Positions 12,671 through 16,763 of a stretch of 64,000 bases of DNA are shown piece after piece; position 1 is the stretch's first letter; every line of letters begins with the position of its first letter. The DNA is from an uncultured Clostridia bacterium (GTDB taxonomy: Bacteria > Bacillota > Clostridia > Lachnospirales > UBA5962), in contig CAMLLW010000003.1 in assembly GCA_946481295.1 (NCBI GenBank), positions 1-64,000 of the forward strand. Reading direction: 5' to 3'. A program made the position numbers and the translations under genes. The notes below the pieces were generated by a model. That model did no database searches, had not been told where the DNA came from, and was given only the letters and a program-made list of their open reading frames with translations.

Positions 12671-13900
12671 CTAAGCTTTTTTTCTTAACATATCAAATTT
12701 ATTTACTTCTGTATCTAATTTTATTTTTATTTTTTGTTTAGGATGAGGTGCCTCAGTAATTAATTTTCCTTTTTCATCATACATTTCTTTAACTACTTGT
12801 GTGACATTTGCACCATTTGATTTAAAAATTTCTATTTCGTCACCAACTACAAATTTGCTACGTTGTTCTATATTTGCAAATCCAGTATTTTTATCATAAC
12901 TTTCAACTAAAGCAATAAAATCATAATTTCTTATATATGAGTTATTAGTATATACACTATCTTCATTAGTTGGTTTATTAAAATAAAATCCTGTAGAAAA
13001 ATTTCTATGACTAGATTTACTTAATTCTTCTATATAATAATCTAGTTTAGAATTATATTTTTCAATATTTTCTAAACAGTCGTCTATAGCTTCTCTATAA
13101 GCTTTTACAACAGCAGCTACGTAATAAGAAGTTTTCATTCTTCCCTCTATTTTAAAACTGTGAATACCTGCATCTATCATCTGAGGAATATATTTTATCA
13201 TACATAAATCCTTAGAATTATAAATATAAGTTCCTCTTTCATCTTCAAAAACAGGCATATACTCTCCTGGTCTTTTTTCTTCCATCAAATGATATTTCCA
13301 ACGACAAGCATGCGCACATTCTCCTCTATTTGCATCTCTACCTGTCATATAATTACTTAAAACACATCTACCTGAATAAGCCATACACATTGCTCCGTGT
13401 ACAAAAGCTTCTATATCGAAATCTTTAGGAATGTGCTTACTTATCTCTGATATTTCTTTTAAAGATAATTCTCTAGCTACAACTATTCTTTTTGCGCCTA
13501 AGTTATACCAAAATAATGCTGATTGATAATTTGTATTATTAGCTTGAGTACTAATATGTATCTCCATATTAGGAATAACTTTTCTTGCAATAGAGAATAT
13601 ACCAGGATCAGATATTATAAGAGCATCTACACCTATTTTTTCTAACTCTAAAAAATAATCTTCAATACCTTCAAAATCTTCATTATGTGCATAAATATTA
13701 GCAGTTACATATATTTTTTTATTTCTTTCATGTGCATAATTAACAGCTTCTACCATTATATCATTATCAAAATTACCAGCTTTTGCTCTAAGCCCTAAGC
13801 TTTTGCCACCTATGTATACGGCATCCGCACCATACTCTATAGCTACCTTTAATTTTTCTAAATCTCCTGCAGGTGATAATAATTCAATTTTTTTATTAAT
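12671..13900 (-). CDS. trhP: U32 family protein, tRNA 5-hydroxyuridine synthesis (TrhP/YrrO-like), ATT start
   Basis: The U32 signature is clear (EAFVHGAMCMAYSGRCVLS, then CAHACRW), as in YegQ/YrrO. The family, once annotated as collagenase, includes TrhP, which is needed for prephenate-dependent ho5U34 formation in tRNA. The first ATG (13756) would delete 48 residues containing the conserved LLSPAGDLEKLKVAIEYGAD segment and has no ribosome site. Upstream there is no in-frame ATG, GTG or TTG, but an ATT at 13900 follows AAGGAG by 10 nt and overlaps the trmR stop. Starting there gives 409 residues beginning MNKKIELLSPAG. The C-terminal domain (about 330-405) is the small U32 C-terminal barrel. 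Close family members are often paired; here only one copy is present. Confidence 0.88.
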   Translation of the reverse strand: MNKKIELLSPAGDLEKLKVAIEYGADAVYIGGKSLGLRAKAGNFDNDIMVEAVNYAHERNKKIYVTANIYAHNEDFEGIEDYFLELEKIGVDALIISDPGIFSIARKVIPNMEIHISTQANNTNYQSALFWYNLGAKRIVVARELSLKEISEISKHIPKDFDIEAFVHGAMCMAYSGRCVLSNYMTGRDANRGECAHACRWKYHLMEEKRPGEYMPVFEDERGTYIYNSKDLCMIKYIPQMIDAGIHSFKIEGRMKTSYYVAAVVKAYREAIDDCLENIEKYNSKLDYYIEELSKSSHRNFSTGFYFNKPTNEDSVYTNNSYIRNYDFIALVESYDKNTGFANIEQRSKFVVGDEIEIFKSNGANVTQVVKEMYDEKGKLITEAPHPKQKIKIKLDTEVNKFDMLRKKA

Positions 13901-14576
13901 TTATAATATTCTCCTTAATAAAAATTTCAATTTTAGTTTTTACACACATTACTATACCATCTCCAACTGGCACTATACTTGTTTCTAAGCCATCTGTATT
14001 AGATATTAAATCTAAAAATTTTTTCATTCTCCTATAGATAGTACGCTGTCTTCTTGGCACTTCATTTTCGCATTTAGCGATATTACCATTTTGAAAAATA
14101 TCATCAGCTATTAATACTCCTCCGACATTTAATAAACGTATACAATCATTAAAATAATTAATGTATTGCCCCTTATTGGCATCTAAAAAGATAAAATCAT
14201 AACTATTATTTAAAGAAGGTAAAATATCTTTAGCATCTCCTTCTAATAGTGTTATTTTTTCTTCTAATCCTAATTTTTTAAAATTTTTTCTAGCCTTTAA
14301 TATCATTAAATCATATCTATCTATGGTTGTAATATGTCCATTTTGAGCTAAATACATACTCATAAAGCTACTAGAAAAGCCTATACAACATCCTATTTCT
14401 AAAATAGTTTTTGGCCTTTTCATTGCTAAAATAGAACCTAAAAATCTAACTGTATCATTTGGTATAATAGGAAAATTATTTTCATAACCATACTCTTGTA
14501 TTTCTCCTAATTCTCCCTTACACATAGGTTGTAATTGTTTTATATAGTTTTCTATTTCAGAATTTATAATGCTCAT
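13896..14576 (-). CDS. trmR: tRNA 5-hydroxyuridine methyltransferase (TrmR/YrrM-like)
   Basis: SAM-dependent O-methyltransferase of the COMT-like class I fold, 226 residues. The SAM site is ILEIGCCIGFSSSFMS, followed by TTIDRYD, LEGDAKD and metal-binding FIFLDANKG and LIADDIF. The arrangement upstream of a U32 gene matches Bacillus yrrM-yrrN-yrrO, where YrrM/TrmR methylates 5-hydroxyuridine to 5-methoxyuridine at the wobble position. The ATG at 14576 is preferred (AGAAAG about 9 nt upstream); a TTG at 14585 adds three residues. Its stop overlaps the trhP start. Confidence 0.88.
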   Translation of the reverse strand: MSIINSEIENYIKQLQPMCKGELGEIQEYGYENNFPIIPNDTVRFLGSILAMKRPKTILEIGCCIGFSSSFMSMYLAQNGHITTIDRYDLMILKARKNFKKLGLEEKITLLEGDAKDILPSLNNSYDFIFLDANKGQYINYFNDCIRLLNVGGVLIADDIFQNGNIAKCENEVPRRQRTIYRRMKKFLDLISNTDGLETSIVPVGDGIVMCVKTKIEIFIKENIIN

Positions 14577-14618
14577 AAATATCAACTTTCTATATTAAAT
14601 TTTTATTGGAAATTAGAT

Positions 14619-14783
14619 TTATATACTATAATAATCTACTCTTATTGCTTGTGATTGTATAATTTTGTGTCCAATATTAAATGTATATTTTGATATTTGA
14701 TATGCTAAAAAAATAATACACATATAAATTAAAAAACTTATCAAACATTTCACCAAAAACCATTTAAAATTCACTTTACTCAT
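14619..14783 (-). CDS. Small membrane protein, 54 aa, unrecognised
   Basis: An ATG preceded by AGGTGATTAAA (a fair ribosome site) opens 54 codons ending 43 bp before trmR. The product has a basic amphipathic start (MSKVNFKWFLVKC), one strongly hydrophobic helix about residues 13-29, and a polar tail ending VDYYSI. It is probably membrane-inserted and co-transcribed with trmR-trhP. In Bacillus the gene upstream of yrrM encodes the murein transglycosylase MltG. A vestigial MltG N-terminal anchor is one possibility, but the similarity is too weak to assert. Confidence 0.5.
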   Translation of the reverse strand: MSKVNFKWFLVKCLISFLIYMCIIFLAYQISKYTFNIGHKIIQSQAIRVDYYSI

Positions 14784-14940
14784 TTTAATCACCTAATAAA
14801 TAAACATATTTTTAGCATTATAATTATAATACCTTAATTAAATTTATTCAACTTAATTTACCATTTTATTTACTTAATACTTAAATTATTTAAAGATTAT
14901 ATTTTTATTTTAATCTTATTATGTTATTATTTTATTTAAT

Positions 14941-14990
14941 ACAAATATTATTGTTTTTTTACATATTAATACATATGTTATTGTTTTTTT
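14941..14990 (+). repeat. Two 20-bp near-identical direct repeats before the HNH gene
   Basis: 14941-14960 and 14971-14990 match at 18 of 20 positions, both ending TTATTGTTTTTTT, with a period of 30 bp (about three helical turns). They end 6 bp before the AAGGAG of the HNH gene. They could be a regulatory or slippage element. Confidence 0.45.
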
Positions 14991-15009
14991 GAAGAAAAGG
15001 AGCATACTT

Positions 15010-15309
15010 ATGTCAAATTATAGAGCTACATATTTTAATAAAAATAAAAGTAATTATGGATGGTATAAATGTCAGCATTGTGGAAAAAGTTTCAGAAAAT
15101 CTGAAGTTGATATAGATCATATTATTCCTAAAAGCAAGGGAGGATCAGATAAAGAATTTAACTTGCAAATTTTATGTATACATTGTAACCGTTCTAAAAA
15201 AGATAGTACATACAATATTCGTAGCGATTTATATAAAAGTACAAAAAGAATTTTAAAAAGAAAAACTCAAAAATATTCATTATTAAGATTTATATTAAAA
15301 AACCATTAA
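15010..15309 (+). CDS. Stand-alone HNH endonuclease
   Basis: A 99-residue protein with the zinc-stabilised HNH fold: a CQHC knuckle, catalytic core DIDHIIPKSKGGS, NLQILCIHCN with the second cysteine pair, and RSKKD. A basic tail follows. Such small HNH proteins occur as homing-type, phage or orphan nicking enzymes; the target is unknown. ATG is favoured because AAGGAG sits just before it; a TTG at 14989 would place that site inside the gene. It is a single plus-strand gene among minus-strand neighbours, so it could be a transferred cargo gene, though no intron or element ends are visible. Confidence 0.85.
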   Translation: MSNYRATYFNKNKSNYGWYKCQHCGKSFRKSEVDIDHIIPKSKGGSDKEFNLQILCIHCNRSKKDSTYNIRSDLYKSTKRILKRKTQKYSLLRFILKNH

Positions 15310-15323
15310 GATTATATATAAAT

Positions 15324-15349
15324 AAAAAGAGGTTAAATAACCTCTTTTT
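15324..15349. terminator. Bidirectional terminator between HNH and FapA genes
   Basis: Perfect 12-bp arms AAAAAGAGGTTA and TAACCTCTTTTT around a 2-nt loop, with T runs on both sides. The convergent FapA-type gene stop codon lies inside the right arm. Confidence 0.9.
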
Positions 15350-16763
15350 AATTTAATGGAATTATTTTTATATTTCCATCTATATTTTTAATTTTACAAC
15401 TATATGCTTCATCTTCTATATTTTTTATAATATTACCCATCTTTATATTAACTCCCTGATATATAACTTTCTCTATAATTATATCTCCTCTGTATAAGTT
15501 ACTCTCTATAAGTGGTTTTAATTCTAAAACATCTTCTTGTAAAATTTCTATACTATTTTTTAAATCTTTTACAGTATTTATAGTATTTAAAAAACTTGCT
15601 TTTTTATTTTTATTACATGACATGCCTTGTGCTTTTGCTTTTAACATTGAGTTTAAAGATTGGACATAATTATTATATTTAACTTTCATACTTTTTAATT
15701 CTTTTACTTTTTTAGTGTATTCCTCTAATTTAGAAGCATCTAATCCAACATATATTTCTGTTAAAGTTCCCATAGGAGAACCTATTATTTTAGCATTTAT
15801 GCCATTTCTTACAATTGCTTTTCCGCCCACAAGTAATCCTTTTTTCCCTTTTACTTCTATAAAACCATCACATTTTATTTCACTATGCATTATACCATCA
15901 GCATAAACATTTCCTCCAGCAATAATATTAGCATCTTGTATAATTTTAGCAGTAACGTTTCCCTCTGCTCTAATATTAGATTTTGACATACCAGTTATGC
16001 CTTTGCCAACTAAAATATTGCCTCCAGAATATATTTCAGCACCTTCTAACATACCGTAAATTTCTACATTTCCCAAAGCTTTTATAGAAAATTCTGTTAG
16101 AACATTCCCCCGCACAATTACCGATCCATTAAAATTTATATTCCCTGTTCCTACACCTACATCGCCCTGTATTTCTAAGACTTCTACAACATTGACTTTA
16201 TTGTCCATATAAATAATTTGCCCTGCAACTTCTGAAATAAGTTTCAATCCATCTTCAGAAATTTTTGTATTTTTACCTTTAGGTAAATGTACAGAATCTT
16301 TACCAATTAGTCCTGGTATTCTTTCTCCCAATACATTAATACCTTCATCTCCCTCTGTTGGTGGATTTAATTCAACTAAAACATCACCAACATTAGCCAT
16401 CTTAACCCAATCTAAATTTCTATAGTCTACAGTACCATCTTTTAGTACTTTAGGTTTTAAATTTCTTGAAGAATTATCAAATTTAAAACTAAGACTTGAA
16501 GGTTTGCCAACAGTAGGTGCTTCACCCTTTGCTATAAGATATTTATTATTATATAATCTATTTTTAGTAAGCTCATATAATAAAATTTCATTTATTCCGT
16601 ATACTATACCACTTTCATACATTTGTTCTTTTATTTCTTCTACTGTTAACATAATATCATTAATACTACTATCATTTGATTTAAAAATAATATATGCTTC
16701 CATTTTACTGCTAGAAATTGAAAATTCAATTTCTATGTTCTTCTCTTTATTTAGTAAAGTCAT
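15348..16763 (-). CDS. FapA/DUF342 family polymerisation protein
   Basis: A 471-residue protein with the FapA (DUF342) architecture. A mixed N-terminal domain is followed by a right-handed beta-helix-like region (about 190-345) rich in repeated G-N-V / I-x-A-x-G-N-V steps, such as GNVEIYG and GNILVGK. A coiled-coil (about 350-430) and a small beta tail close it. Family members occur in flagellar assembly (Vibrio FapA) and as unassigned proteins in many Clostridia. No flagellar gene is present here. It starts 18 nt after addB, so they probably share a transcript. Confidence 0.85.
   Translation of the reverse strand: MTLLNKEKNIEIEFSISSSKMEAYIIFKSNDSSINDIMLTVEEIKEQMYESGIVYGINEILLYELTKNRLYNNKYLIAKGEAPTVGKPSSLSFKFDNSSRNLKPKVLKDGTVDYRNLDWVKMANVGDVLVELNPPTEGDEGINVLGERIPGLIGKDSVHLPKGKNTKISEDGLKLISEVAGQIIYMDNKVNVVEVLEIQGDVGVGTGNINFNGSVIVRGNVLTEFSIKALGNVEIYGMLEGAEIYSGGNILVGKGITGMSKSNIRAEGNVTAKIIQDANIIAGGNVYADGIMHSEIKCDGFIEVKGKKGLLVGGKAIVRNGINAKIIGSPMGTLTEIYVGLDASKLEEYTKKVKELKSMKVKYNNYVQSLNSMLKAKAQGMSCNKNKKASFLNTINTVKDLKNSIEILQEDVLELKPLIESNLYRGDIIIEKVIYQGVNIKMGNIIKNIEDEAYSCKIKNIDGNIKIIPLN

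Follow-up and report, generated by a model that had tools for sequence, protein, structure and literature searches.

An AUU codon overlapping the trmR stop as the most likely start of a trhP-type peptidase U32 gene in an uncultured Clostridia bacterium

The window, a 64,000-nucleotide stretch of DNA from an uncultured, anaerobic Clostridia bacterium, carries on its minus strand a methyltransferase gene of the trmR type followed by a peptidase U32 gene of the trhP type. Comparisons were made within a family of seven genomes, designated G000 (the genome of the window) and G001 to G006. The relatives belong to the same order as Sporanaerobium hydrogeniformans, whose record is identical to the locus from a further genome, G007; this order is probably the Lachnospirales. 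The features that define the junction of the two genes are as follows:

13896-14576, minus strand: trmR (yrrM-type tRNA 5-hydroxyuridine methyltransferase), ATG at 14576, TAA at 13896-13898; PF01596, 112 bits
13893-13895, minus strand: second in-frame TAA of trmR, where the gene ends in G001 and G003
13911-13916, minus strand: Shine-Dalgarno sequence AAGGAG, within the end of trmR and 10 nt ahead of the ATT; same place in G001
13901-13903, minus strand: TAA in the trhP frame, abutting the ATT on its upstream side
13898-13900, minus strand: proposed trhP start ATT (AUU), aligned with the ATG of G001, G003 and others
13754-13756, minus strand: internal ATG, first canonical start codon of the trhP frame, 48 codons past the ATT
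12671-13900, minus strand: trhP-type peptidase U32 gene, 409 codons from the ATT, stop TAG at 12671-12673; PF01136, 337 bits; PF16325, 103 bits

At the junction the minus strand reads ..TATTAAGGAGAATATTATAA ATT AAT AAA AAA ATT GAA TTA TTA TCA CCT GCA GGA GAT.., the spacer between AAGGAG and ATT is AATATTATAA (13910-13901) and the T at 13898 is shared by the trmR stop TAA and the ATT. Downstream of its TAA at 13903, the trhP frame contains no ATG, GTG or TTG before the ATG at 13756, leaving no upstream canonical start for the gene, and any start located farther upstream is excluded by the TAA at 13901-13903. The original prediction had placed the start at the ATT at 13900, 10 nt after AAGGAG and overlapping the trmR stop, with no canonical start upstream of 13756 back to the in-frame TAA; all of its coordinates hold, and the frame scan agrees with the latter statement.

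Upstream of trmR, an ORF of 54-57 residues with a single helix (14618-14791, minus strand) occupies the place where G001 to G003 have a full MltG-like transglycosylase, and similar short proteins occur at the same place in G004 and G006. This short ORF may represent what is left of mltG, namely its membrane anchor. A small HNH-endonuclease-like ORF (14989-15309, plus strand, 106 aa) is divergent to the trmR-trhP operon. No sibling contigs were found among viral contigs.

The 48 codons that separate the ATT from the internal ATG had been described as conserved-looking, and this is borne out by three lines of evidence. The identity to the TrhP of G001 is 40/48 in residues 1-48 vs 249/361 in the remainder of the protein; conservation in 109 relatives reaches 90% or more at 18 of these 48 positions; and among the intact genes in 464 kb of G000 scanned for codon usage, none has nearly as strong a coding signal ahead of its first canonical start as trhP. 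The 59 near-invariant columns of TrhP are all kept in the G000 protein. In the predicted structural model (mean pLDDT 83), residues 6-10, 14-22 and 27-32 form, mostly with high confidence, strand beta1, helix alpha1 and strand beta2 of the barrel, and the ATG at 13756 falls within the helix after beta2; according to this model, a start at 13756 would entail the loss of beta1, alpha1, beta2 and part of alpha2 and thus a broken barrel.

With regard to the identity of the protein, the scores for the peptidase U32 (PF01136) and U32 C-terminal (PF16325) domains are far over the cut-off, and C172, C179, C195 and C199 are invariant among 32 sequences, with C233 nearly so. The best NCBIfam match is TrhP (NF011996), with 397 bits vs a cut-off of 534 for this E. 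coli-type equivalog, a score below the cut-off being expected because the protein is clostridial (YrrO-like) and not of the E. coli type. The name "TrhP-like" seems appropriate given the U32 domains, the core residues, the trmR partner and the prephenate source, and the protein is not classed as a TrhP of the E. coli type. As with E. coli TrhP (YegQ) and B. subtilis TrhP1/TrhP2 (YrrO/YrrN), it is a U32 protein encoded beside trmR and, by analogy, would be expected to make ho5U34 for TrmR; unlike the YrrO/YrrN pair of B. subtilis, a single trhP gene is present here.

TrmR, which depends on the product of TrhP or TrhO, was found in all seven family genomes. TrhP occurs without TrhO in five of them (G000, G001, G002, G003 and G006) and TrhO without TrhP in the other two (G004 and G005; loci L151 and L152). 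TrhO is oxygen-dependent and reportedly lacking in Clostridium and other obligate anaerobes, and TrhP requires prephenate (PMC6599085). TrhO was not found in G000, where trhP is the only tRNA-U34 hydroxylase gene found, and a dead trhP would deprive TrmR of its substrate; this pattern of gene absence is support rather than proof, because genes may be missing from draft assemblies. Chorismate synthase and an AroH-type chorismate mutase are present in G000, so that prephenate can be made, and trhP is thus accompanied by both an adjoining trmR and a source of prephenate. In G002 and G006, which have TrhP, chorismate synthase and chorismate mutase were not detected, reflecting either incomplete assemblies or another prephenate source. 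Judged from its sequence and genomic setting, trhP of G000 is intact and apparently needed.

The origin of the ATT was addressed by comparison with a set of 110 distinct TrhP reading frames including this one, a few of them being slightly differing duplicate records of one genome. A canonical start (ATG, GTG or TTG) lies within about 10 codons of the homologous position in each of the 109 other sequences, and the frame of G000 is the sole one without it. The alignment with TrhP relatives, which had been suggested as a check, places the ATT at the homologous ATG position. The closest relative is the TrhP of G001 (71% identical), the start region of which, AAGGAGCTGGATTATGATGAATAAAAAAATTGAG, has the same length as AAGGAGAATATTATAAATTAATAAAAAAATTGAA in G000, with ATG opposite ATT; the codons AAT AAA AAA ATT GAx after the start are common to G000 and its relatives. 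An insertion or deletion in the A-rich sequence following the start was rejected, since the spacing and the following codons equal those of G001. The sister genomes G001 and G003 carry ATGATGAATAA at the junction and their trmR is one codon longer (..DE*), ending at a TAA inside trhP. One G to T substitution at 13898 accounts for both the change of ATG to ATT and the earlier trmR stop in G000, and the ATT is best read, from these alignments, as the derived state of one lineage. The overlap had also been likened to the usual ATGA coupling: the overlap itself is present, but the likeness is loose, the ancestral overlap being ATGAATAA and ATTAA a by-product of the same substitution.

The initiation context of the ATT is ordinary for this genome. 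Its AAGGAG is of median strength among 272 genes measured in G000 and the spacing of 10, shared with 25 of 235 genes, lies within what is normal here (modes 7-9), and a Shine-Dalgarno sequence was found neither at the internal ATG 13756 nor at either of the two candidate trmR starts. A special RNA structure at the trhP start was rejected as an explanation, as local folding is ordinary (z = -0.08). Termination of trmR right at the start codon of trhP would favour re-initiation, a process that is strengthened by a Shine-Dalgarno sequence (PMC2268962). Counting against the use of AUU, a switch from AUG to AUU has very seldom been seen in other genomes (a single case in 61,358 ancestral AUG starts reconstructed from triplets of close genomes, a count that is lowered by annotation habits; PMC5622118), trhP is devoid of an extended Shine-Dalgarno sequence, and TrhP is missing from two family members and can thus be lost.

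On balance, translation of TrhP most likely begins at the ATT at 13900, served by the Shine-Dalgarno sequence in the end of trmR and overlapping the trmR stop. The ATT is very probably real, and its use as a start codon is judged probable. In the proposed scenario, the ancestral ATG would have changed to ATT by a single G to T substitution, the genome being reduced and AT-rich (about 24.5% G+C) and the gene staying intact and working. The 30S subunit would be placed by AAGGAG, alongside ribosomes finishing trmR, and the initiator tRNA (anticodon CAU) would start on AUU with a third-base mismatch, giving a protein that begins fMet-Asn-Lys-Lys-Ile and whose N-terminal peptide is expected to begin NKKIELLSPAGDLEK. 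The initiation rate would be under the AUG level (about 10% of AUG for AUU and AUA in S. aureus; PMC13009471) and may be tolerated because the Shine-Dalgarno sequence and the upstream ribosomes, presumably aided by re-initiation, would suffice.

Near-cognate starts were surveyed over 863 kb of G000 (57% of the genome, 690 genes), a genome of 1.52 Mb in 59 contigs that is 93.5% complete, the G+C value given above referring to its sampled part. Several of the survey rows lacking a usable canonical start are antisense shadows of real genes. Two cases unambiguously lack a usable canonical start: gdpP (L142 -2681) has ATA after AAGGAGG (a 7-nt Shine-Dalgarno sequence) and its next canonical start at +34, near the second membrane helix, and rny (L178 +15715) has CTG (or GTT) after AAAGGAGGTG (10 nt) and its next canonical start at +12, inside the membrane helix; the rny protein is 76% identical to its G001 ortholog, whose start is ATG. 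The rho gene (L177 -15179) shows ATT after AAGGAGG, with the next canonical start at +110 and upstream only a GTG that precedes the Shine-Dalgarno sequence, and a gene for an HTH regulator (L141 +7167) shows ATT after AAAGGAGGT; both are probably without a usable canonical start. The ATT of aroC (L181 +18360) and the ATA of cdd (L179 -3709), cca (L169 +15540) and a NUDIX gene (L178 +19102) are only possible near-cognate starts, since each of these genes has an in-frame GTG within or next to the Shine-Dalgarno sequence, the GTG of cdd being usable with AAGGA. Finally, infC (L126 / L137 near 13479) starts with ATT behind AGGAGGTG, an ATT start being shared by most infC genes of the family.

The same scans applied to 400 kb each of G001 and G003 found infC alone, and when 219 genes of G001 and 127 of G003 were aligned with their orthologs, no near-cognate start was convincing. 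A Fisher value of p = 0.009, obtained with the comparison for split genes given below, rests on five ortholog cases, three of them only possible, and would not be significant with the unambiguous trhP and rny alone. A lineage with relaxed start selection, in which about 1% of genes (among them trhP, gdpP, rny, rho and perhaps aroC, cdd, cca and NUDIX) start at AUU, AUA or CUG, possibly in link with a change in IF3, is a tentative reading that we hold to be somewhat doubtful. To our knowledge, such a proportion would exceed that of any known bacterium by far. In the IF3 of G000, Asn replaces the Asp of the IMDY motif, which is kept in six family relatives, E. coli, Thermus and Geobacillus-type IF3; as a link to relaxed discrimination this replacement is a lead only. 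An altered initiator tRNA was rejected, since the CAU tRNA of G000 (L131) carries the C1xA72 mismatch and three G-C pairs, as normal initiators do. The repeated use of near-cognate starts within a single genome is the more interesting lead and would be new if the cases hold; it would then provide a natural test of the limits of start-codon relaxation in an AT-rich, reduced bacterium and of the changes in IF3 and Shine-Dalgarno sequences that accompany it.

The survey bears on the possibility that the T at 13898 is an assembly base error or a minority variant and that the gene really starts at ATG (or GTG/TTG), like its relatives. One substitution would restore the ancestral ATGAATAA with trmR ending ..NE*, similar to the ..DE* of G001 and G003, and the sequence is known from a single assembly of the species, fragmented and probably a metagenome bin, in a genus represented by one genome. 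However, other G000 genes also lack canonical starts and the codons in their place (ATT, ATA and CTG) are known weak starts. The base-error rate needed for these starts, about 0.2-0.6% depending on the cases counted, would disrupt tens of the compared genes, but no nonsense or frameshift split was found among about 226 genes compared with relatives, and none of 229 was split except by the group II introns of obg and as antisense shadows; errors are thus rare in G000, and we regard this explanation as unlikely.

According to the original prediction, the AUU could throttle TrhP relative to TrmR. As a regulatory device of this kind, either the level of IF3 or coupling to trmR would set TrhP below TrmR, which is in line with the response of the E. 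coli infC AUU to IF3 and with the AUU start of infC in G000 itself. Raised IF3 was found to inhibit non-canonical starts as well as re-initiation devoid of a Shine-Dalgarno sequence (PMC2268962). The conservation in relatives that would be expected of a regulatory AUU was, however, not encountered: the ATT is restricted to one species among the 110 sequences, which leaves no conservation for control. The extended Shine-Dalgarno sequence of the regulatory S. aureus cases (PMC13009471) is missing as well, the local RNA structure is ordinary, and trmR has no Shine-Dalgarno sequence, so that TrhP need not be the weaker product; with a median-strength sequence in front of trhP, any imbalance between the two proteins might go either way. 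The throttle idea is thus not sustained by these data and appears improbable, mutation bias in an AT-rich, reduced genome being the simpler account.

A start at the internal ATG 13756, with the first 48 codons as untranslated remains of a decaying or shortened gene, is very improbable. It would agree with the position of this ATG as the first canonical codon, which callers limited to ATG, GTG and TTG would pick, and with the lack of TrhP in two family genomes, but it is opposed by the missing Shine-Dalgarno sequence at 13756, by the conservation of residues 1-48 and their predicted beta1-alpha1-beta2 fold, and by the lack of a replacement TrhO in G000. Near-cognate starts are missed by such callers, and 48 residues would be cut from TrhP. 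Synthesis of a joint TrmR-TrhP protein through a frameshift at the trmR stop, for which the abutting and overlapping frames might speak, was rejected as having practically no likelihood: given the TAA at 13903 in the trhP frame, the ribosome would have to slip by +1 (or -2) at AAT, the last sense codon, AAU to AUU re-pairing of Asn-tRNA is poor and the relatives have a separate trhP ATG.

Initiation at the ATT, the preferred reading, has precedents. The AUU starts of E. coli infC (encoding IF3) and pcnB were established by experiment, and that of infC is conserved and autoregulatory. With these genes trhP shares an AUU at the conserved, homologous start position behind a Shine-Dalgarno sequence and the lack of any ATG, GTG or TTG able to give the full-length conserved protein; unlike infC, its ATT occurs in one species and was read from sequence. 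In S. aureus, non-canonical starts were mapped by Ribo-Ret in cvfC1 (AUU) and in ccpN, citZ and infC (AUA); like the AUA of citZ, found in one strain lineage, the ATT of trhP would be a seemingly lineage-confined Firmicute start, and unlike the S. aureus starts, most of which have extended Shine-Dalgarno sequences close to the start, it has a plain six-base AAGGAG (PMC13009471). Isolated AUU starts such as those of infC, pcnB and cvfC1 form a known, rare class, to which trhP probably adds another.

Two housekeeping genes of G000 are interrupted by ORF-less group II introns (RF02004, RF00029), obg twice (L149, contig G000:C10, 6915-7661 and 7999-8759, minus strand) and rlmB once (L135, G000:C2:20001-40000, 15096-15876, minus strand). 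The maturase domain PF08388 was not found in G000, so splicing of these introns would need another helper or a gene that was missed. A further copy of a group II intron tail is located ahead of a gene in L184, probably near 13641 on the minus strand.
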